DNA from: Anaerosomatales bacterium
GTDB taxonomy: Bacteria; Actinomycetota; Coriobacteriia; Anaerosomatales; Anaerosomataceae
DNA length: 64,000 bases
NCBI GenBank assembly: GCA_030019445.1
Contig: JASEEU010000009.1
Location: forward strand, 1-64,000
Reading direction: 5' to 3'
The position numbers were made by a program, and so were the translations under genes. Below, piece by piece: positions 30,938 to 43,240 of the stretch. Within the stretch, counting starts at the first letter, position 1. Each line of letters opens with the position of its first letter. The notes beneath the pieces were generated by a model. The model did not search any database, was not told where the DNA came from, and saw only the letters and a program-made list of their open reading frames with translations.

Positions 30938-33900
30938 CTACGCGCCGAGCATCGCGACATGCACGACGTGCGCCTCCCCGTCGTCGACGAGCGGGACGCG
31001 TCCCTTCTCGGCAGCGCGACCATCGATCGTCACGCGCTCCACACCGCGATTGGCGCCGCGCGGGTTCTCGACGTGGATCTCGTAGGTGGCCGACCCGTAC
31101 CGGTACGTGAGGGTGAACGCGGGCCACGCCTTGGGGATGCAGGGGTCGACGCGGAGGTACCGTCCCTGCTGGTCGGCGCCGAGGACGAGGCCGAGAAGAT
31201 CGCGCACCGCGACCCGGTAGAACCACGAGGCGGAGCCGGTGTACCAGGTCCAGCCGCCGCGGCCGACGTGCGGCTCGACGGCGTAGACGTCGGCGGCGAC
31301 CACGTAGGGCTCGACGCGGTAGACGTCCGCCCCGGCTCGCGTCGCGGCGTGGTTGAGCGGATTGATGAGCGACATGAGCGAGAGCGCCTCGTCACCATCG
31401 CCGCGCAGCGCGTACGCGAGGATCACCCAGAGCGCGGCGTGGGTGTACTGGCCACCGTTCTCGCGGACGCCGGGGACGTAGCCCTTGATGTAGCCGGGGT
31501 CGTGCTCCATGCGGTCGAACGGCGGGGTGAGCAGCCGGACGAGGCCGTCCTCCCATCGCACGAGCTGCTCCTCGACGCTCTCGAGCGCCCGCTGGGCGCG
31601 CCCGGGGTCGCCCTGGCCGGAGATGGTCGCCCACGCCTGCGCGATCGCGTCGATGCGGCACTCCTCGTTGGCGGCGCTGCCGAGGGGCGTGCCGTCGTCG
31701 AAGAAGGCGCGACGGTACCAGGCCCCGTCCCACGCTTCGCGCTCGATGGCCGAGACGAACGCCGCGGCCCGTGCCCGGTACTCCGCCGCACGCTGCTCGT
31801 CGCCGCGGGCGTCACAGAGGGGAGCGAACGCGCGCAGCACGACGTCGAGGAACCACGCGAGCCACACGCTCTCGCCCTCGCCGCCGATCCCGACGCGGTT
31901 CATGCCGTCGTTCCAGTCACCCGAGCCCATGAGCGGGAGGTCGTGTCGTCCGGTGGCCGATCCGGAGTCGAGCGCGGCCACGCAGTGCTCGTAGAGGCTC
32001 GCCACGCGCAGCCCCGGTTGCGGCTGCAGGTAGACGTCCTCAGCGCCCTCCGGCACTGCGGGACCCTCCAGATAGGGGAGCTCCTCGTCGAGCACCGACC
32101 AGTCTCCCGTGACGGCGACGTACTCCGCGGTCACGTACGGCAGCCAGTGGCGGTCGTCGGTGAAGCGCGTGCGCACGCCCCGGTCGGAGCGGGGCTGCCA
32201 CCAGTGCAGCACGTCGCCTTCAGGGAACTGGTGGCGCGCCGCTTCGAGCAGGTGCTCGCGCACGAGGTCCGGGCGCGCGTAGAGGAGCGCCAGGCAGTCC
32301 TGCAGCTGGTCGCGGAAGCCGAACGCGCCCGAGGACTGGTAGGTCGCGGTCCGGCCCCAGAACCGGCACGCGAGCGCCTGATACAGCGTCGGCCCGTTGA
32401 CGAGCGCGTCGAGCGCGGCGTCCGGCGTCTTGGCATGGACCGTCCCGCAGATGACGTCCCAATGGCGCCTCGCGTCGGCGAGCGCATCGTCGATCGCGCC
32501 GGGGGCGCGGTACGCTCGCAGGAGCGCGTGCGCGGCCTCGACCGTCTCGGCCTGGCCGAGAAGGAACGCAACCTCCGTGCTCTCGCCCGGCTCGAGCGTC
32601 ACCCGGTGCTGCAGCGCGCCGCAGTTGTCGTGGAAGCGTCCCGTCTCGCCGCCGAGCCCGATCCGGTGCATCGCCGCGGGGTCGCGCGGGTCGCGGTTGC
32701 GCCCGACGAACTCGGTGCGGCTCGCCGTGTACGACGCCACCGCGCCCGTGCAGGCGCAGAACGCCGGCAAGCCGGGGAAGTCCGGGTTGAACCAGTTGTG
32801 CGCCATGAGCGCATCGGCGTCCGCGTCCCACCACGTGACCACGCGCTGCTGCGCTTTGCTGCGCGAGTCGCCGAGCACCCACTCCACGAACTGGGTGACC
32901 GACAGGTCGCGCACCCGATCGGTACGGTTGGTCAGGCGCAGGCGGGCGACGCGGACCGGGTCGCGCGGCCCCACGAACACCTCGAGCGCGGTCTGGATGC
33001 CGTGCTCGGTATGCTCGAAGCTGCTCGCTCCGCGCCCGTGCCGCACGACGTACGGCCCCGTGCCGCGTATGGGCAGCGGCGTGGGGCACCAGAACTCCCC
33101 GGTGCGCTCGTCGCGGACGTACAGCACCTCGCCGGTGCCGTCGGAGACGGGATCGTTGTTCCAGGTGGTGATGCGGTTCTCGTGCGAATTGTGCGCCCAT
33201 GTGCACGCGACGCCCGCCTCTGAGATGAGCGTGCCGAACGTGGCGTTGGCGAGCACGTTCACCCACGGCGCGGGAGTAGCGTCTCCGTCGGCGAGGACGA
33301 TCACGTACTCGCCGGTCTCGGCGTCGAATCCGCCGTAGCCGTTATCGAACGCGAGCTCCGGCCGCTCGAACGGCGGCTGCGGATCGGCTGCGGGCTCCTC
33401 ATGCGGTACGAGCTCGAGCGGCGGCTCCGGCCGGCGGCTCCGCTGGTCGAGCTGGAGCGCGAGCGGGCCGCCGTCGCCGCGCAACACCGCGCGCGCGACG
33501 CTCTCAAGCAGGTTCGCCACGTCCGGCGGGATCTGGTCGGCGTTGCGCAGGAAGACCCCGCCTGGCTTGTCGATGAGCTGCAGCGCGTGACCGGTGCGCA
33601 TGAGCATCCGCAGTCGACCGTCGAGCTCGGAGGAGTACGCGGTCGGCGTCGTGTTGAGGATCACGAGGTCGGAGATGAAGCCCTTGGTGCGCCAGTACTG
33701 GTGGGCGAGGAGCGCCTGCCGCACGAGCGGCGTCTCCTCGAGGCGCTCGACCTGCACGAGCAGGATGGGTTTGTCACCGGAGATGCCGAGCGACCACAGC
33801 CCTGAGATCGGCAGGCGGTTCTCGACCTCCGTGATCGCCTTGAGCCGCGAGCGCGGGTCGGTCAGCAGCAGGCGCGAGGCGAGCCGCTGGTACGTGACGG

Positions 33901-36900
33901 CCTCCTCGGGCGTGATGCCGAGGTCGCGCAGCTCGATCTGGCTCGTCGACCACGCGAGGTCCGCCGCCCGCTGCGACGCGTGGATGTCGTGGTACTTCTC
34001 GGCCAGCCCCACCGCCGCCTCGCGCGTGCCGGCCGCGCCGGTCGAGAACGCGAGTCGGACCGAGGCTCCGGGCTCGATCACGAGCGTCTGGCGGATGCTG
34101 CAGATGGGATCGAGGACGGCGCCGACGGTGCCGGTGAGCCGACCGTCTCCCCAGATCGCCTGCGCGTTCGTCGGCGTACGCAGCCGGCCGAGGAACGCCG
34201 CGCGATCGGTCTCGTACGACCACGCGCAGGCGCGCTCGACGTCGCACGCGAGCACGTGGAAGCCCCATGCGCGGGCCTCCTCGGCGGAGCGCGGCCGACG
34301 GGTGAACAGGAGCGCGGTGACCGGGTCGAGCGCCTCGGTCTGCACGAACAGGTTCGCAAAGGCCTTGTGCGCCGCATCCGCGCCCGTCGGTGCGAGGACC
34401 GCCTCGAAGTACGACGTCACCTCGAGCGAGAGCGTCTCGCGTCCGTGGTTCGCCACGGTGACACGCCGAACTTCGACGTCGTCCTCGGGCGAAACGATGA
34501 CCTCGGTGTGCGTCTCGACATCGCCGTCGAGCCGGCGGAACTCCGCCTTGTCCGCCGAGAAGGTCACGTGGTAGTCGTCCGGCTCGGCCATCGTCGGCTG
34601 GTAGGCCGCCGACCAGATGCGCCCGCTCTCCACGTCCTTGAGGTAGATGTGCTGGCCCCACCAGTCGCGGGTGACGTCTTCGCGATAGCGCGTCACCTCC
34701 ATGTCGCCCCAGCGGCTGTAGCCGCCGCCCGCGTTGGTGACCATCACCGAGTACGAGCCGTTCGACAGGAAGTGCGTCGCGGGAGTCGGTGTGTCCGCGA
34801 GGGGGTAGGAGCGGGTGACCGGCTGCGGCGGTTCGCGCACCGCCCGGACGTACTCCACCTCCTCGACGCGCGGCGCGGCGATGGTGACGCGGCGCGGGAC
34901 GCGCTCCTGCAGCAGCAGCTCCGCCGAGCGCACCACCGGGTCGGCGTGGAAGCGCTCCACCATGCGGTCGCCCGTGAGCATGTTGCCGAGCGCGACGAGG
35001 CTCATGCCCTGGTGGTGCGCCATGTACGCCTTCACCACTGCGCGCTCGGTGCCGGCGGGGACGCGCCCGGGCGTGTAGTCGACCGCTTCGTAGTAGCCGT
35101 AGCGCCCCTCGGCACCCTGCCGGGAAAGCGCCCGGAGGTTCTCGAGGGCTGAGGTCGGCGCGACAGGCAGGGCAAGCACCGTCGCGTAGGGCGCGATGAC
35201 GACATCGTCCGACAGCCCACGCTTGAGGCCGAGGCCGGGGACGCCGAACGCCTGATACTGGTAGGTGAGCTCGACGTCCTTGGCGTTGAACGCGGACTCC
35301 GAGACGCCCCACGGGACGTTTCGCTGGGCGCCGTACTGGATCTGGCGCCGCACGACCGCCTGGTACGTCCGTTCGAGCAGCGTGCCGGGATACGTGCGCA
35401 TGACGAGTCGCGGCATGAGGTACTCGAACATCGACGCGCTCCACGACACGAGCGCGCGTCCTCCGCCCGTCTGGGTTATCGCTCTGCCGAGACGGAACCA
35501 GTGCTCCTGCGGCACGTCGCCCTTCGCCACGGCGATGTAGCTCGCGAGCCGGCACTCGGAGGCGAGCATGTCGTAGAAGGAGTCATCGAGGCGGCCCTCG
35601 GCGGTGTTGAAGCCGATCGAGAAGACCATGCGGCTCTCGTCGAAGAGCATGCCGAAGTCGGTGTTCTCGTACATCTCGTGCGCGATGTCGCACATGAGCC
35701 GCAGCTCGGCGAGGAGCTGCTGGCAGCGCGGACGCGCCGCGCGCAGTGCCGTCACGACCTCGTGCGCCCATTCGGCGGCGTCGCCGCCCTCCCCGGTGAG
35801 CCCGGCGAGGGTCTTCTCGGCGGTGTCGAGACCTTCGGCAAGCCCGGTGAGGCTCGGCACGTGCTCGAGCAACGGCGCGAGGAGCTCCGCGGCCTCCGGC
35901 GGGAGGGCGGCGGCGGGAGTCCGGCGCAGGAGCGATGCCCACGGCGCGAACGTCTCGATGTCCTCGAGTCGACCGAGCACGGCGGCGTGCACCGCTCGGA
36001 TCGCGGCAGCCGCGAAGGGCGCGTCGCCATCGAGCGCTGCCGCGCGGCGCGCCATCGGGGCCGTCTGCGCGGCGAGACCCTCGAGCAGCGCAAGCCACCC
36101 GCCGAGCTCGGTGGGCGGCTCGTCGAGCGCGGTGCGCCGCAGCAGCTCCTCGAGTGAGGTCCGCAGCTCGGTGACGATCTCGCGCGCCGAGGCGTCCTTC
36201 TGATCGGCGAGCAGGTCGCCGAGGGCCATGCGCGCGGTGTCGGCGATGCCATCGATGACCTGCGGGCCGAGGAGCGGGCTCTCGCTCGCCTCGGTCAGGC
36301 CGACACGCACGGCGATGAGGTGCCCGGCCAGGTTGCCGCTGTCCACCGTGGAGACGTACGTCGGACGCAGCGGCTGCAGCGTGAGCGTGTCGTACCAGTT
36401 GTAGAAGTGCCCGCGGAAGCGCTCGAGGCCTGCCATCGTCTCCAAGGTGCGCGACTCCCGCTCGACGAGCGCGGGGAGGCCGAGATAGCCGAGGTCGTAA
36501 GCGGTGAGCGCAGCCAGCAGCTGCAGGCCCATGTTGGTGGGGGACGTGCGGTGGGCCACCTCGCCCTTGGGGTCCTCCTGGAAGTTGTCGGGGGCGAGCC
36601 AGTGGTCCTCGGCGGTCACGAACGTCTCGAAGAACCGCCATGTCTTGCGTGCGGTCGAGCGCATGGTGGCGACATCGGCGGACGTGAGCGGGGGCTCCTC
36701 GGCCACAACGGGCTGGCTCACGCGCCAGGCGACGTACGGGCCGAGAAACCAGGCGGCCACGAGCGGCGCTGCGGCGGGGAGCGACGGCGGGTCCGCGACC
36801 GCGAGCAGCGCGACACCGGCGACGACGACCGCGAGGCCGGGCCACATGCGGCGCAGGAAGTCGGCGGGAGCGGTCCCCAGCCGGCGCTCGACCTCGGCAG

Positions 36901-39661
36901 CGGTCTCCCACTCGAGCAATCCGCGCTTGCTCACACCCATACGCCAGAGCGCACGGCCTATGGCGTCGATCATGACGTACGCCTGGTGGGGCAGCACCGC
37001 GAGCGAGAGCGTAGCCCGGGCGGTGTCGCGCCAGAAGTCGCGCGTGAGCGAGCTCCGGTCACCGCGCACGTCGGCGCCGCGCGGACGGAACAGCAGGGAG
37101 TCGGCGACGCTGAAGTAGACGGGGAAGAAGACGATAGCCGCGACCACGGCCACGAGGCACCAGTCGGGGCCGGGGAGCAGCGCCATGCCGCCGAAGAGGA
37201 ACGCCATGACGGCCGGTGGGAAGAGCGAGCGCCGGAGGTTGTCCACGATCTTCCATCGGTGCAGGCCGGTCAGCGGATTGGGCTCACGACCTCCGGCGGC
37301 GGGTACGCGCGCGCCGAGCCAGGGCAGCGTCTGCCAGTCGCCGCGGACCCAGCGGTGCAGGCGCGCGGTGTGCGAGACGTAGCTGGCAGGTTGATCGTCG
37401 AGGACCTCGATGTCGGAGGCCAGCGCGGTGCGCAGGTAGGAGCCCTCGAGGAGATCGTGCGAGAGCAGGGTGTTCTCAGGAAACCGGTCCTCGAGCACGG
37501 TATCGAAGACGTCGACCTCGAAGATGCCCTTGCCGGTGAAGCTGCCTTCGCCGAAGACGTCCTGGTAGGTGTCCGAGACGGCCCCCGCATATGGATCGAC
37601 TCCGGTGACGCCCGAGTAGAGCCACGCGAAGACCGACCGCTCGGCGCCCTCGAGCGACATGCCGACGCGCGGTTGCACGAGACCGTACCCTCCACGAACG
37701 ACACGACGCGTCGCGTCGACGCGCGCGCGGTTGAGCGGGTGCGCGATGGTCGCGACGAGCTTGCGCGCCCCGTCGCGTGGCAGCACCGTGTCGGTGTCGA
37801 GCGTGATGACGAACGTGACGGCGGGGAGGAAGGAGGCGTCGCCCTCGGTGACGATGAAGCTCGTCTGGCCGGAGCCCCGCAGCATCCGGACAAGCTCCAC
37901 GAGCGAGCCGCGCTTGCGTTCCCAGCCCATCCAGGTGTCGTCGGCCTCGTTGTAGCGCCGCCCGCGGATGAAGAGGTGGAAGGGCCGATGCCCGTCAGCG
38001 CCGTAGCGCTCGTTCAGGGCGCGGATGCCGCTCCTGGCAGCATCGAGCACCGCGGCATCAGCGGGGGTCTCCCGCGCGTGTGCGGCCCTGAGGTCGCCGA
38101 GGACGGCAAAGGCGATGTTGGGGTCGCTGTTGGCGAGATAGGCGATCTCAAGGTTGTCGATGACGTGCTGCGCACCTGCCGGCGACGTCAGGAGCGCGGG
38201 GATGACGACGAGCGTGCGGTGCGCCCCGGCAAGCGGCCGGTGGTAGTCGAGCTTGGGAAGCACCCGGGCAGGCCACACCGACGCCGCCACGCGGTTCACG
38301 AGGTTGATCGCCAGGTCCGAGATCGGCACGACGGACAGGAGCATGATGGCGACGGTGTGTGCGACGCCTGCGCCGCGGAGGGCGACGATCCACCCAAGGC
38401 CCAGGGCGAGCGCCAGGGTGATGAAGGCGAGCAATCCCCAGAAGATGGCGCCCCGGGCGGCGAGCGGCCCGCGGTACGCGACCTCTCGGGTGCGCGGGCG
38501 GTAGCCGATCGCCTGCTCGAAGCCGTACCGGCCCGAGCTGATGAGGTAGTAGCCGACATGGCTCGCCAGCGGGTCGGAGGCGTCCCGGGCCTGGGCGTCG
38601 AGCGCGATCGAGAGGACCGCCTCGGCCACGCCCACCTCATCGAGCGGGCAGCGCGCCGCAAGTCCCTCGATGGCATGCCGATAGCGATCGCGCGAGGTGA
38701 AGTCCATCCGCGCGAACACGCCGGCCGGGTCTTCGCGCAGGATCTGCTCGACGAGCGAGCACTCTTCGAAGAAGTCGCGCCACTCGAGCGCGCCGAGGAA
38801 GCGGATGCTCGTGATGGCGTTGGCGATCGAGACCTGGTCCGCCGCCTGCGCCTGATGCTCCGCGAGGGTGAGCTCCTCGAGCGAGTCGCCTCGCTGGGCG
38901 AGCACGCGCTCGAGCCAGGCGACAGCCGGTTCGACGCTCGCTTCCTGGGCCTGCAGCCGCTGGTGGAGGCGGATCAGGAAGGCCGCTTCATGACGGAGCG
39001 GCTCGCTATCGAGCGCGTCGAGCACGCGCCCCATGTCGCCGCCGGTTCCCGCGGTCTCGATGAGTCGGTTGGCCCATCGGTCGGCCGCGGCGCTCGCGTC
39101 GTGCGCGGCATGCACACGCAGCGCCAGGCGCCGCAGATCCTCCACGAGGGCGATGCGCAGCATGATGGGGATCGCCCATACCTCGCCGATGGAGAGCGGA
39201 GCGACGTCTTGGTAGGCCATGGTGAAGCGCACGAGCTGCTCGCGGGTTATGCGCGCGTCCGTGTGGATGACGACCGACGCGATCGCCTCGTAGATCCGCG
39301 GATACTCCCGAAGAGGGCCGGTGAGCAGCCGCGGCAGCTCGATGCCATAGTCGCGGGGCAGGTCTTCGCGGATCGTATCGACCTGTTCTTCGATGAGGTA
39401 GAAGTTGTCGAGGAGCCACTCCGCCGCCGGAGCGACCGGGATCCGCTCGCCGGGATCGCCCGCGAGGTCGTCGTAGAACGCCCGGAGCGCGGCATGGGCA
39501 CGCTCCACAAGGCCGAGCAACGGCGTGACGCGAGGAGGGGACTGCGCCGTCCATGATTGCCCGCGCCCGATCCCTCGCGCCGCAGCGGCGAGCCGCTCAG
39601 CGCTCAGGAGCTCGCCGCGCAGGGGCGCGTCGCCGTTCAGCACCGACGCTCCGTCGGTCAC
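30938..39661 (-). CDS. Cyclic beta-1,2-glucan synthase-like giant glycosyltransferase (GT84-GH189-GH94)
   Basis: This 2,907-residue protein is close in length to Brucella Cgs. N-terminal helices lie near residues 410-470. A GT84-type glycosyltransferase region spans about 540-900, with TLDTDTVLPRDGA near 620. More membrane segments lie near 820 and 940. A glucoamylase-like cyclising domain (GH189 region) has GMLFDESRMVFSIGFN near 1340. A C-terminal GH94 phosphorylase-like part has GSGDWNDGMNRVG near 2585 carrying the catalytic Asp. In Proteobacteria such enzymes polymerise and cyclise beta-1,2-glucan from UDP-glucose and export it. The product here is inferred from the family. I chose GTG 39661, with a GAGGTGGGA site upstream. 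Confidence 0.88.
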   Translation of the reverse strand: MTDGASVLNGDAPLRGELLSAERLAAAARGIGRGQSWTAQSPPRVTPLLGLVERAHAALRAFYDDLAGDPGERIPVAPAAEWLLDNFYLIEEQVDTIREDLPRDYGIELPRLLTGPLREYPRIYEAIASVVIHTDARITREQLVRFTMAYQDVAPLSIGEVWAIPIMLRIALVEDLRRLALRVHAAHDASAAADRWANRLIETAGTGGDMGRVLDALDSEPLRHEAAFLIRLHQRLQAQEASVEPAVAWLERVLAQRGDSLEELTLAEHQAQAADQVSIANAITSIRFLGALEWRDFFEECSLVEQILREDPAGVFARMDFTSRDRYRHAIEGLAARCPLDEVGVAEAVLSIALDAQARDASDPLASHVGYYLISSGRYGFEQAIGYRPRTREVAYRGPLAARGAIFWGLLAFITLALALGLGWIVALRGAGVAHTVAIMLLSVVPISDLAINLVNRVAASVWPARVLPKLDYHRPLAGAHRTLVVIPALLTSPAGAQHVIDNLEIAYLANSDPNIAFAVLGDLRAAHARETPADAAVLDAARSGIRALNERYGADGHRPFHLFIRGRRYNEADDTWMGWERKRGSLVELVRMLRGSGQTSFIVTEGDASFLPAVTFVITLDTDTVLPRDGARKLVATIAHPLNRARVDATRRVVRGGYGLVQPRVGMSLEGAERSVFAWLYSGVTGVDPYAGAVSDTYQDVFGEGSFTGKGIFEVDVFDTVLEDRFPENTLLSHDLLEGSYLRTALASDIEVLDDQPASYVSHTARLHRWVRGDWQTLPWLGARVPAAGGREPNPLTGLHRWKIVDNLRRSLFPPAVMAFLFGGMALLPGPDWCLVAVVAAIVFFPVYFSVADSLLFRPRGADVRGDRSSLTRDFWRDTARATLSLAVLPHQAYVMIDAIGRALWRMGVSKRGLLEWETAAEVERRLGTAPADFLRRMWPGLAVVVAGVALLAVADPPSLPAAAPLVAAWFLGPYVAWRVSQPVVAEEPPLTSADVATMRSTARKTWRFFETFVTAEDHWLAPDNFQEDPKGEVAHRTSPTNMGLQLLAALTAYDLGYLGLPALVERESRTLETMAGLERFRGHFYNWYDTLTLQPLRPTYVSTVDSGNLAGHLIAVRVGLTEASESPLLGPQVIDGIADTARMALGDLLADQKDASAREIVTELRTSLEELLRRTALDEPPTELGGWLALLEGLAAQTAPMARRAAALDGDAPFAAAAIRAVHAAVLGRLEDIETFAPWASLLRRTPAAALPPEAAELLAPLLEHVPSLTGLAEGLDTAEKTLAGLTGEGGDAAEWAHEVVTALRAARPRCQQLLAELRLMCDIAHEMYENTDFGMLFDESRMVFSIGFNTAEGRLDDSFYDMLASECRLASYIAVAKGDVPQEHWFRLGRAITQTGGGRALVSWSASMFEYLMPRLVMRTYPGTLLERTYQAVVRRQIQYGAQRNVPWGVSESAFNAKDVELTYQYQAFGVPGLGLKRGLSDDVVIAPYATVLALPVAPTSALENLRALSRQGAEGRYGYYEAVDYTPGRVPAGTERAVVKAYMAHHQGMSLVALGNMLTGDRMVERFHADPVVRSAELLLQERVPRRVTIAAPRVEEVEYVRAVREPPQPVTRSYPLADTPTPATHFLSNGSYSVMVTNAGGGYSRWGDMEVTRYREDVTRDWWGQHIYLKDVESGRIWSAAYQPTMAEPDDYHVTFSADKAEFRRLDGDVETHTEVIVSPEDDVEVRRVTVANHGRETLSLEVTSYFEAVLAPTGADAAHKAFANLFVQTEALDPVTALLFTRRPRSAEEARAWGFHVLACDVERACAWSYETDRAAFLGRLRTPTNAQAIWGDGRLTGTVGAVLDPICSIRQTLVIEPGASVRLAFSTGAAGTREAAVGLAEKYHDIHASQRAADLAWSTSQIELRDLGITPEEAVTYQRLASRLLLTDPRSRLKAITEVENRLPISGLWSLGISGDKPILLVQVERLEETPLVRQALLAHQYWRTKGFISDLVILNTTPTAYSSELDGRLRMLMRTGHALQLIDKPGGVFLRNADQIPPDVANLLESVARAVLRGDGGPLALQLDQRSRRPEPPLELVPHEEPAADPQPPFERPELAFDNGYGGFDAETGEYVIVLADGDATPAPWVNVLANATFGTLISEAGVACTWAHNSHENRITTWNNDPVSDGTGEVLYVRDERTGEFWCPTPLPIRGTGPYVVRHGRGASSFEHTEHGIQTALEVFVGPRDPVRVARLRLTNRTDRVRDLSVTQFVEWVLGDSRSKAQQRVVTWWDADADALMAHNWFNPDFPGLPAFCACTGAVASYTASRTEFVGRNRDPRDPAAMHRIGLGGETGRFHDNCGALQHRVTLEPGESTEVAFLLGQAETVEAAHALLRAYRAPGAIDDALADARRHWDVICGTVHAKTPDAALDALVNGPTLYQALACRFWGRTATYQSSGAFGFRDQLQDCLALLYARPDLVREHLLEAARHQFPEGDVLHWWQPRSDRGVRTRFTDDRHWLPYVTAEYVAVTGDWSVLDEELPYLEGPAVPEGAEDVYLQPQPGLRVASLYEHCVAALDSGSATGRHDLPLMGSGDWNDGMNRVGIGGEGESVWLAWFLDVVLRAFAPLCDARGDEQRAAEYRARAAAFVSAIEREAWDGAWYRRAFFDDGTPLGSAANEECRIDAIAQAWATISGQGDPGRAQRALESVEEQLVRWEDGLVRLLTPPFDRMEHDPGYIKGYVPGVRENGGQYTHAALWVILAYALRGDGDEALSLMSLINPLNHAATRAGADVYRVEPYVVAADVYAVEPHVGRGGWTWYTGSASWFYRVAVRDLLGLVLGADQQGRYLRVDPCIPKAWPAFTLTYRYGSATYEIHVENPRGANRGVERVTIDGRAAEKGRVPLVDDGEAHVVHVAMLGA

Positions 39662-39817
39662 TCCGCGTCCCACCTCTCCGCTCCCCCTCGCAAGGGCCCC
39701 ACGTGCACGAACCACTATTGTGCCATGTTCCCCACGAGGGCGTTCGCCCCTGCAGGGGCACGCAGCTTGCTTGTGATCGGCCGAGAAGACCGACGTGGAG
39801 GCATGGAGGACACCTGG

Positions 39818-40243
39818 ATGACGAGCCGGAGCAAGTGGGTGCTCGGCGCATTCGCAGTGGTGCTCGGCGCCGTGGCGCTGGCGAGCCTGACGCAGCCCGA
39901 CACGCGTTCGGCCGAGGCGCGGCGGACACCCCATGCACCGGCGGAGACGATGACGCCGCTGGCCGAAGGACGTCCGGTCCTCTACGAGTTCTACTCACCA
40001 GGCTGACCCGCCTGCGTCGAGGTCGCGCCTGTCGTGGACAGGCTTCAGGCGGAGTACGAGGACCGGGTCGAGTTCCGGCTCTACGATGTGGATGCGGGAC
40101 AGGGCGCCGAGTTCGCCGAGCGCTTCGGTGTGCAGGTCGTGCCGACGTTCGTCTTCGTGAATGCCGACGGCACCGTGAGCGATCAGCGGGTCGGCGCGCT
40201 CGCCGAGCGCCATCTGCGGGCCGCGCTCGGCGCGCTGCGATAG
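39818..40243 (+). CDS. Predicted selenocysteine-containing thioredoxin-like protein (UGA read through)
   Basis: This 141-residue membrane-anchored thioredoxin-fold protein is interrupted by an in-frame TGA at 40004-40006 (residue 63). Residues 7-24 form a membrane anchor or signal. EFYSPG precedes the TGA and PACVEVAPVVDRL follows, so TGA occupies the place of the first Cys of the CxxC motif (UPAC, Cys66). Later thioredoxin features are intact, including VVPTFVF with the cis-proline at 109. The ATG at 39818 has GGAGGA at 39805-39810. A hairpin at 40027-40043 fits a bacterial SECIS. I infer Sec insertion giving an extracytoplasmic thiol/selenol oxidoreductase. A nonsense-mutated pseudogene is the alternative. 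Confidence 0.78.
40027..40043 (+). promoter_or_regulatory. Candidate bacterial SECIS element
   Basis: GCCTGTC at 40027-40033 pairs perfectly with GACAGGC at 40037-40043 and closes on a GTG loop. The loop starts 27 nt after the TGA, within the 16-37 nt window described for bacterial SECIS elements, and its first base is G as that model requires. The stem lies inside coding sequence, as bacterial SECIS elements do. An alternative pairing of CGCCTG at 40026-40031 with CAGGCG at 40046-40051 is weaker. Confidence 0.65.
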
Positions 40244-40622: not shown

Positions 40623-40961
40623 CTAGATCGCGTCGGCGCCGCGCTCGCCGGTGCGGACCCGCATGCCGGTCTCGACCTCGGACACGAATACCTTGCCGTC
40701 GCCGACCCGCCCCGAACGCGTCGCCGCGACGATCGCGTCGATCACCTCGTCCACGACGTGGTCATGCACGACCGCGACCACGAGCAGCTTGGGGAGCAGG
40801 TCGACGACGGCCTCTTCGTTCCCCACGAACGTGACGACGCCCTGTTGCGTGCCATGGCCTTTGGCCTCAAGGACGGTGATCCCCGAGTGCCCCGCGTCGA
40901 CGAGGGCGGCCTTCACCGCCTCCAGGTTCTCCGGCCGGATGATCGCCTCGATCTTCTTCAT
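40623..40961 (-). CDS. P-II nitrogen regulatory protein (paralogue lacking Tyr51)
   Basis: This 112-residue P-II protein begins MKKIEAIIRPENLEAV. The nucleotide-binding residues Gln39 and Lys58 and the C-terminal VRTGERG segment are kept. In the T-loop, residue 51, which is Tyr in modifiable P-II proteins, is Ala, and residue 46 is Val. This paralogue therefore cannot be uridylylated or adenylylated at that site. It overlaps the upstream P-II gene by 4 nt (ATGA) and ends the operon. Confidence 0.93.
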   Translation of the reverse strand: MKKIEAIIRPENLEAVKAALVDAGHSGITVLEAKGHGTQQGVVTFVGNEEAVVDLLPKLLVVAVVHDHVVDEVIDAIVAATRSGRVGDGKVFVSEVETGMRVRTGERGADAI

Positions 40962-41344
40962 GACGGCTCCCTTGAGTCCTGGGGGGTCCCGGCGGTCCGG
41001 GACGGGCGGAGCGCGGCATCCCCGGTCTCGCCGGTCCGAACGCGCAGGGCGCGCTCGACACGCGACACGAATACCTTGCCGTCGCCCATCCTGCCGGTGC
41101 GCGCGGCAGCCTCGATCGTCTCAAGGACCTCTTCGGCATCAGCATCCGCGACGACCGTCATGACCACGGTCTTCGGCAGGAGGTCGACCACGTACTCCGC
41201 GCCGCGCCACGTCTGATGGACGCCGCGCTGGATGCCGTGCCCCGACGCGGAGTAGACCGTGACCCCGCCACAGCCGAGCTGCCGCAGCGCCTCGCGCACG
41301 GAGTCGGCGCGCTCGGGTCGTATGATCGCCTCTATCTTCCGCAT
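40958..41344 (-). CDS. P-II nitrogen regulatory protein (with C-terminal extension)
   Basis: This 128-residue P-II protein begins MRKIEAIIRPE. The T-loop keeps Tyr51 (TWRGAEY). Gln39, Lys58 and the VRTGETG segment are present. It continues about 16 residues past the usual P-II end with a Ser- and Pro-rich tail (RPSRTAGTPQDSREPS). The start is the ATG at 41344, where the family N-terminus begins. It is separated from the amt-linked P-II gene by a terminator-like hairpin and coupled to the next P-II gene by overlap. Confidence 0.92.
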   Translation of the reverse strand: MRKIEAIIRPERADSVREALRQLGCGGVTVYSASGHGIQRGVHQTWRGAEYVVDLLPKTVVMTVVADADAEEVLETIEAAARTGRMGDGKVFVSRVERALRVRTGETGDAALRPSRTAGTPQDSREPS

Positions 41345-41477
41345 GGCATGGTGACCGCCTCGTCGTGGCTGTGAGGGAGCGCAGCGCTCCACCGGCGTGG
41401 TCCCAGCGTACGGGGCGCACGTTTCGGCGGTGTTTCCACGGCGTGGCGCCTCGCCCTTCTCGGCCGGGGACGCAACA

Positions 41478-41503
41478 GAGCGGGGCCCCGAAAGACCCCG
41501 CTC
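41478..41503 (-). terminator. Hairpin between P-II genes
   Basis: On the minus strand an 8-bp stem, GAGCGGGG with CCCCGCTC, lies 25 nt after the stop of the amt-linked P-II gene, followed by TGTTG. It may terminate part of the amt transcript, so the two distal P-II genes are expressed at a lower level or from their own promoter. Confidence 0.6.
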
Positions 41504-41527
41504 CGCGGTGACCGTCCTGCTCCGGAG

Positions 41528-41866
41528 CTAGATCGCGGTCTCGCCGCTCTCGCCCGTCCGGATGCGGTAGACCTCGCCGACGTCGTAGACGAAGATCTTG
41601 CCATCGCCCACCTCGCCGGTACGCGCCGCCGCCATGATCGCCTCGACGATCGCCGGCGCCGATCCGTCCCCGACGACCACTTCGAGCTTGTACTTCGGCA
41701 GGAGCTCGACTTTGTACTCGCGGCCCCTGAACTGCTGGAGCACACCCTTCTGCTTCCCGTGTCCCTCGATGCGGGTGACCATGAGGCCGGGGCAGTCGAG
41801 GGCGTCGAGGGCTGCCTTCACCGCATCGAGCTTCTCCACGCGGATGACAGCTTCCACCTTCTTCAC
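41528..41866 (-). CDS. glnK: P-II nitrogen regulatory protein next to amt (GlnK-like)
   Basis: This 112-residue P-II protein begins at GTG 41866 (KKVEAVIRVEKL), with AGGGAGG upstream. Tyr51 is present in the T-loop (QFRGREY), along with Gln39, Lys40, Lys58 and the C-terminal IRTGESG. Direct linkage to amt, 33 nt upstream, is the standard GlnK-AmtB arrangement, in which GlnK plugs the ammonium channel when nitrogen is plentiful. The GlnK name rests on this linkage. Confidence 0.93.
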   Translation of the reverse strand: MKKVEAVIRVEKLDAVKAALDALDCPGLMVTRIEGHGKQKGVLQQFRGREYKVELLPKYKLEVVVGDGSAPAIVEAIMAAARTGEVGDGKIFVYDVGEVYRIRTGESGETAI

Positions 41867-41899
41867 GCGACACACCTCCCTGTCGTATCTGCCCGCACT

Positions 41900-43240
41900 C
41901 TACTCCTCGACGAGGATGAAGTTCGGGTAGGCTGAAGAACCGTGCTCGTCGATGTCCAGGCCGGCGAGCTCCTCTTCGGGGCTCACGCGGATGCCCATGA
42001 TCATGTCCATGAGCTTGAACATCACGAACCCAAGGCCGAACGCCCAGGCAATGACGGTGCCCACGCCGGCAAGCTGCGCCCAGAGCTGGTCCGCGCCGCC
42101 GCCGTAGAACAGGCCCGTGATATCGCCGTACGTGCCGTCGGCGAACAGCCCCACGGCGATGAGGCCCCAGATGCCGTTCACGCCATGGACGCTGAACGCG
42201 CCCACCGGGTCGTCCACGCCGAGGTTCTCCACCGTCAGGATGGAGACGACCACGAGGACGCCGGCCACCAGTCCGATGAGAACGGCCCCGCCGCCGCTCA
42301 CAACGGCGCACGGGGCGGTGATGCCCACGAGGCCGGCGAGCGCGCCGTTGAGCGCCATGCCGATATCGAACTTCTTGGTCTTCATGTAGATCAGGAGCAA
42401 GGCCGAGGCGGCGCCGGCCGCGGCCGCCATGTTGGTGTTGAGCGCGATCACCGCCATGCGCAGGTCGTGACCGCTCAGCGTGGACCCGGGGTTGAAGCCG
42501 AACCAGCCGAACCACAGGATGAACACGCCGAGCGCGGCGAGCGGGATGCTGTGACCGGGGATGGCGCGCGGCTTCCCGTTCTTGTCGTACTTGCCGAAGC
42601 GCGGACCCAGCACGACCGCGCCTGCCAGACCGATGAGGCCGCCGAGCGCGTGCACGACGCCCGAGCCGGCGAAGTCGTGGTGACCGAGGCTGCTGAGCCA
42701 ACCGCCACCCCACACCCAGTGTCCGTAGATCGGGTAGATCACGGCCGAGATGATGACGCTGTAGATCAGGTACGACTTGAACTTGAGCCGCTCGGCCACA
42801 GCTCCGGAGACGATCGTGGCCGCCGTGGCCGCGAACACAACCTGGAACATGAAGTCGCGATAGACGGTGACGTCGTACGCGTCTCCACCCAACAGGAACT
42901 GGCTTGTGCCGATGAGCCCGGCTTTGTCGGCGCCGTACATGAACGCCCAGCCGACGACGAAGTACGCGAGCGAACCCATCACGAAGTCCATCAGGTTCTT
43001 CATCATGAGGTTGGTCGCGTTCTTCGCGCGACAAAAGCCCGCTTCCACCATCGCGAAGCCGGCCTGCATGAAGTAGACCAGGAAGGCAGCGACGAGCATC
43101 CAGATGAAGTCGACTGGCGCGCCCGGGTCTGCTTCGAGCGTTGCCGCTCCGGTCGGGTCTGCCGCGAACGCGAACGCGGGGATCGCGAGCACGAGGATCG
43201 CGGCGAGACCGAGCGAGAGCGGCAGCATGCCCTTTCGCAT
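41900..43240 (-). CDS. amt: Ammonium transporter (Amt family)
   Basis: This 446-residue ammonium channel has an N-terminal signal peptide (about residues 1-27) followed by 11 helices, an arrangement seen in many AmtB proteins. Family features include MQAGFAMVEAGFCRAKNATN near residue 55, the conserved twin-histidine regions (SGVVHALGG near 195 and VHGVNGIWG near 345) and the C-terminal tail ending in ILVEE. I chose ATG 43240, 8 nt after AAGGAGG. It heads an operon with one to three P-II genes and is preceded by phased GlnR-like half-sites. Confidence 0.95.
   Translation of the reverse strand: MRKGMLPLSLGLAAILVLAIPAFAFAADPTGAATLEADPGAPVDFIWMLVAAFLVYFMQAGFAMVEAGFCRAKNATNLMMKNLMDFVMGSLAYFVVGWAFMYGADKAGLIGTSQFLLGGDAYDVTVYRDFMFQVVFAATAATIVSGAVAERLKFKSYLIYSVIISAVIYPIYGHWVWGGGWLSSLGHHDFAGSGVVHALGGLIGLAGAVVLGPRFGKYDKNGKPRAIPGHSIPLAALGVFILWFGWFGFNPGSTLSGHDLRMAVIALNTNMAAAAGAASALLLIYMKTKKFDIGMALNGALAGLVGITAPCAVVSGGGAVLIGLVAGVLVVVSILTVENLGVDDPVGAFSVHGVNGIWGLIAVGLFADGTYGDITGLFYGGGADQLWAQLAGVGTVIAWAFGLGFVMFKLMDMIMGIRVSPEEELAGLDIDEHGSSAYPNFILVEE

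Follow-up and report, generated by a model that had tools for sequence, protein, structure and literature searches.

Within the window, i.e. the whole stretch of 64,000 nucleotides that was analysed, a gene for a predicted exported thioredoxin-like selenoprotein is located on the forward strand at positions 39818-40243. It starts with an ATG at 39818, 8 nt downstream of a ribosome binding site visible in the sequence (GGAGG, 39805-39809, forward strand), and extends to a TAG at 40241-40243, the frame being open save for a single TGA at 40004-40006. Translated with TGA as selenocysteine (Sec, U), the frame specifies 141 amino acids with Sec as residue 63, the first residue of the motif UPAC. 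The TGA thereby takes the position of the first active-site cysteine of thioredoxins (SPG-U-PAC), with VAPVVDRL and then VVPTF following downstream. The original prediction had described this frame with its one TGA, the location of the TGA at the first CxxC cysteine and both downstream motifs, all of which are borne out by the sequence and its translation. A hydrophobic stretch, representing a signal anchor or a signal peptide, comprises about residues 8-25 (39839-39892, forward strand). As had likewise been anticipated, gene callers of the standard type would break the gene into two fragments of 67 and 69 amino acids.

The gene is arranged divergently to one for a giant protein of 2907 residues resembling GH94/cyclic beta-glucan synthases (30938-39661, reverse strand), identified by its Pfam GH94 and glucoamylase domains and by synteny at 12 loci. 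Just 3' of the selenoprotein gene, we observed three consecutive small genes of the P-II-like type, adjoining an ammonium transporter gene (40623-43240, reverse strand). Codon usage in the thioredoxin gene is coding-like both 5' and 3' of the TGA, and a codon-usage scan of the 64 kb returned it as the only free-standing read-through candidate of such kind. Other high-scoring TGA read-through candidates were plain junctions of adjacent genes, for example at gyrB, and another was an ORF antisense to the thioredoxin gene that runs into the GH94 gene.

The read-through product matches the Pfam families Thioredoxin (8.6e-14) and Thioredoxin_2 (9.5e-11). With 51.8 bits for PF00085 (cut-off 23.5) it belongs to this domain family; it also exceeds the cut-off of PF13098 (42.4 versus 27 bits), PF00085 being the better fit. 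The Pfam match spans both sides of the TGA as one domain, and solved thioredoxins are the best matches of the family profile. The UPAC active site, which is of the CxxC type, is accompanied by the cis-proline loop VVPTF, and in the protein alignment of the family the U, both prolines and the C are invariant. A structure model calculated from the single sequence, of modest confidence (mean pLDDT 66.5), has its strands and helices arranged as in thioredoxins and places Sec63 just before a helix formed by residues 64-80.

The N-terminus reaches a mean Kyte-Doolittle hydrophobicity of 2.0-2.1 (19-residue), and in homologous proteins this region is occupied by a lipoprotein-type signal or an anchor. 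Taken together, these features suggest that the catalytic domain is most likely situated outside the cytoplasm. As to the "membrane-anchored" protein that had been proposed, the export part of this claim therefore stands: the signal is clear, be it a signal anchor or a signal peptide.

A family-level search covering 27 genomes from 11 genera gave a match in all 27, the best matches containing one TGA. Among the best 30 loci in the family, 28 could be placed, and each of these 28 has the TGA at the exact UPxC position. The window genome itself harbours a second copy (L052:4294-4725, contig 4), also with a TGA. When the search was extended to the class, every case above 80 bits among the matches listed came from the same order and had an in-frame TGA (one had a TAG as well); other families of the class yielded weaker matches only, without a TGA among the matches listed. 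Beyond the order, matches at <=1e-22 came from eight genomes of the phylum. Seven of them have an in-frame TGA, which was read directly at the UxxC position in five, and the eighth, a distant relative (locus L122 of genome G473), represents a natural cysteine form with TGC at the TGA codon. An alignment of homologues had been suggested in order to look for cysteine at this site, and L122 provides it; the pattern expected of a selenoprotein, a conserved in-frame TGA with cysteine in another homologue, is thus present. Plasmid records contained distant thioredoxins only (identity <60%), and a search of genome contigs for related loci returned one weak SAR202 locus only. We attach virtually no credence to the idea that the TGA arose by a sequencing error, or that a decaying thioredoxin gene acquired it as a nonsense mutation, an idea with which the two fragments of standard gene callers would agree. 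The TGA recurs at this codon in 27 homologous loci from other genomes, which excludes a sequencing error, and in the gene's own paralogue; in addition, the 3' half is conserved at the protein level in the homologue alignment and coding in its codon use.

The original prediction had been made dependent on selA, selB, selC and selD, and all four are encoded together in one locus on contig 16 of the window genome (C16:287738-294013), an assembly of 2.09 Mb that is 97.6% complete. Matches to the gene models amount to 608 bits for selA, 388 bits for selB (covering 2-578 of 581) and 366 bits for selD; selC is a tRNA-Sec with the anticodon TCA. In known SelB proteins, it is the C-terminal part that binds the SECIS element, and the nearly full-length match implies that this part is included. 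The selD gene carries an in-frame TGA of its own at the active site (TKSGUAAKWGP). In 14 control genomes, selA was above the cut-off in one, selB in two and selD in two, so that the gene models can be considered selective.

The TGA thioredoxin gene is also present in three genomes (G005, G023 and G025) in whose assemblies we did not find selA, a full selB or a clear or strong selC; a Sec-type selD is clear in G005 and G025. The G023 contig ends directly after selD, and in G005 and G025 selD is followed by an RHH/PIN-like toxin-antitoxin pair and a large gene, after which the contig ends. Since contigs terminate near selD, an assembly or binning gap is the simplest reading, and it is likely that the missing selA, selB and selC genes of these three genomes reflect such a gap. 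A genome comparison gave no clean correlation between the presence of selA and that of the TGA gene: several assemblies without selA retain the gene, the three inspected being those with a contig break near selD, and several genomes with selA lack the TGA thioredoxin gene (e.g. G016, G051 and G086).

A SECIS hairpin is located immediately downstream of the TGA (40027-40043, forward strand). It consists of 17 nt (GCCUGU-CGUGG-ACAGGC) and starts 20 nt 3' of the TGA, with a stem formed by 40027-40032 and 40038-40043 and a loop at 40033-40037 (CGUGG), whose G-U is reached after 27 nt. The hairpin of 7 bp with a GTG loop, originally proposed to lie 27 nt beyond the TGA, is present at that place and can be drawn in the window alone; the form that is conserved in relatives has a 6-bp stem and a 5-nt loop of the type xGUxx. 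The loop G and U are invariant in 29 sequences. A guanosine in the apical loop is a common feature of bacterial SECIS elements (PMC1088965), and a stem-loop just 3' of the TGA with a G in a small apical loop, as expected of such an element, is what we find here.

In 27 distinct sequences, 98.8% of the pair cells are standard, and four of the six pairs have changed on both sides. The covariation of 0.369, compared to 0.158 after shuffling, was reached in none of 500 shuffles and is lost on sliding the partners by 1-3 columns; RNAalifold recovered the same stem unaided. As the hairpin region codes for protein, we also randomised synonymous codons: the perfect stem occurs in 22 of 24 distinct sequences, whereas 2,000 such randomisations gave 1.5 on average and never more than 7. 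In the main covarying pair, the third position of a proline codon (CCU, CCC or CCG) is matched with the first position of the following AGG, GGG or CGG, meaning that a silent base tracks an arginine/glycine change. The window contains 1,499 TGA triplets when both strands are counted; such a hairpin accompanies one of them at this spacing and 35 at some spacing. For this reason the hairpin alone is not significant, its significance deriving from conservation. At the corresponding place in L122, the cysteine form, the SECIS stem is absent. The element is unusually clear, an RNA structure visibly selected inside a coding sequence, and TGA and RNA signal are conserved throughout an entire actinobacterial order, probably the Anaerosomatales (OPB41).

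Could the TGA nevertheless be a true stop, yielding a short exported peptide, with the conserved 3' part translated separately or acting as RNA only? A GTG at 40034 could indeed begin a product of 69 amino acids. The 3' half by itself, however, has no thioredoxin active site, the Pfam domain extends to both sides of the TGA, L122 has cysteine at this codon, and a covarying SECIS lies at the right distance, so that we regard termination as very improbable. Read-through with tryptophan, cysteine or another standard residue, without selenium, would be conceivable in principle wherever Sec genes are absent, as they are from the G005 and G025 assemblies. The window genome, on the other hand, has all four sel genes, its ordinary TGA stops end other genes such as gyrB, and the hairpin has been kept, which leaves only a very slight chance for this reading as well.

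The window gene almost certainly encodes a real selenoprotein, judging from sequence comparison: a thioredoxin of the UPxC type, predicted to be exported and membrane-tethered, which is probably a disulfide reductase. The original selenoprotein reading thereby gains support from the sel genes, the TGA codons of homologues and the covariation of the SECIS. According to our proposal, SelB carrying Sec-tRNA(UCA) would bind the hairpin at 40027-40043, leading to insertion of selenocysteine at the UGA at 40004-40006. The N-terminal hydrophobic segment would then direct the 141-residue selenoprotein across the membrane, where it would adopt the thioredoxin fold. Proteins outside the cytoplasm may be the substrates of thiol-disulfide (selenenylsulfide) exchange by the UPAC motif, in which Sec63 would attack and Cys66 would resolve. 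By analogy, we assume a reducing rather than an oxidising role, with electrons probably arriving from a membrane protein of the CcdA/DsbD type; three DsbD_TM (CcdA-type) proteins are above the cut-off in the window genome and could act as the suppliers.

Relatives of the window gene occur in two conserved neighbourhoods. Locus A, including the window gene, has the thioredoxin gene divergent from the GH94 giant gene (12 loci with that of the window), and locus B, including the second copy of the window genome, has a gene near the NAD synthase gene whose product is a lipoprotein-like thioredoxin. Most locus A proteins are rhodanese-thioredoxin(Sec) fusions with the rhodanese at the N-terminus; L037:1021-1803 and other locus A relatives show this architecture, the selenocysteine being located in the thioredoxin portion. 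Rhodanese is lacking from the window gene and from L022, its closest relative, and the intergenic space in the window is too short for one. In a phylogenetic tree, the window gene pairs with L022 (91/76) among locus A, and the second copy falls within the group of locus B (96/95); several of the deep branchings are tentative.

Might the selenoprotein, instead of being a general disulfide reductase, catalyse oxidation or isomerisation in the manner of DsbA or DsbC, or reduce peroxide or sulfane sulfur in concert with rhodanese? DsbA likewise has a proline after its catalytic residue, as in UPxC, and the N-terminal rhodanese of most locus A orthologues points to persulfide or sulfane sulfur chemistry. 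On the other hand, the domain is that of a classical thioredoxin and not of DsbA, and the window protein is devoid of a rhodanese domain. We consider these other functions unlikely, though appreciably less so than any reading that dispenses with selenium, and favour the disulfide reductase. A more speculative idea, which we rate as rather doubtful, is that two selenothioredoxins outside the cytoplasm, of which one is mostly a rhodanese fusion, form a Sec-dependent system that the order maintains specifically for persulfide or disulfide chemistry and that would be tied to the divergent envelope glucan synthase.

Selenothioredoxins of the UxxC type are an established kind of protein, according to PMC13188914 and PMC1794560. 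Sec thioredoxins have been described in Geobacter, Carboxydothermus and Treponema denticola (PMC1794560), and the 2026 inventory lists one, WP_010956703.1 (PF00085, UxxC), as experimentally verified (PMC13188914). The window protein resembles the Sec thioredoxins of PF00085 in that Sec replaces the first active-site cysteine of a thioredoxin domain and is followed by a SECIS, but differs in its export signal and UPxC motif; it scores 50.3 bits against the thioredoxin equivalog TIGR01068, below the cut-off of 96.8. With the thiol:disulfide interchange selenoprotein of PF13098, as described in PMC13188914, it shares UxxC in a thioredoxin-like domain and a score above the PF13098 cut-off, whereas it fits PF00085 better and reaches no NCBIfam selenoprotein model. 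SaoT (NF040730) is also a UxxC thioredoxin-like selenoprotein, for which the window protein attains 26.1 of the 65 bits set as cut-off. TsoB (NF045694, rhodanese/DsbD fusion-like) combines rhodanese with a thioredoxin-like part and is in this respect comparable to the fused relatives, but has a UxxxxU motif and a DsbD-like part, and the window gene is without rhodanese; at a cut-off of 805 bits, the fused relative L037 scores 25.8 and the window protein has no match. All NCBIfam models stay below their cut-offs, so that the database does not list the group as a selenoprotein family with a name. The rhodanese-thioredoxin(Sec) fusion is covered by no curated NCBIfam model, and its UPxC form was not found in the passages considered of the 2026 inventory (PMC13188914). 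Our literature search found no mention of selenoproteins for the lineage, also under the name OPB41, and the article on Anaerosoma tenue and Parvivirga hydrogeniphila (PMC9686372) contains no word beginning with "seleno". The window protein is ordinary in kind, being a UxxC thioredoxin, and as far as we found new in its lineage, to which it adds a well-supported clade of exported selenothioredoxins whose genes standard annotation would split.
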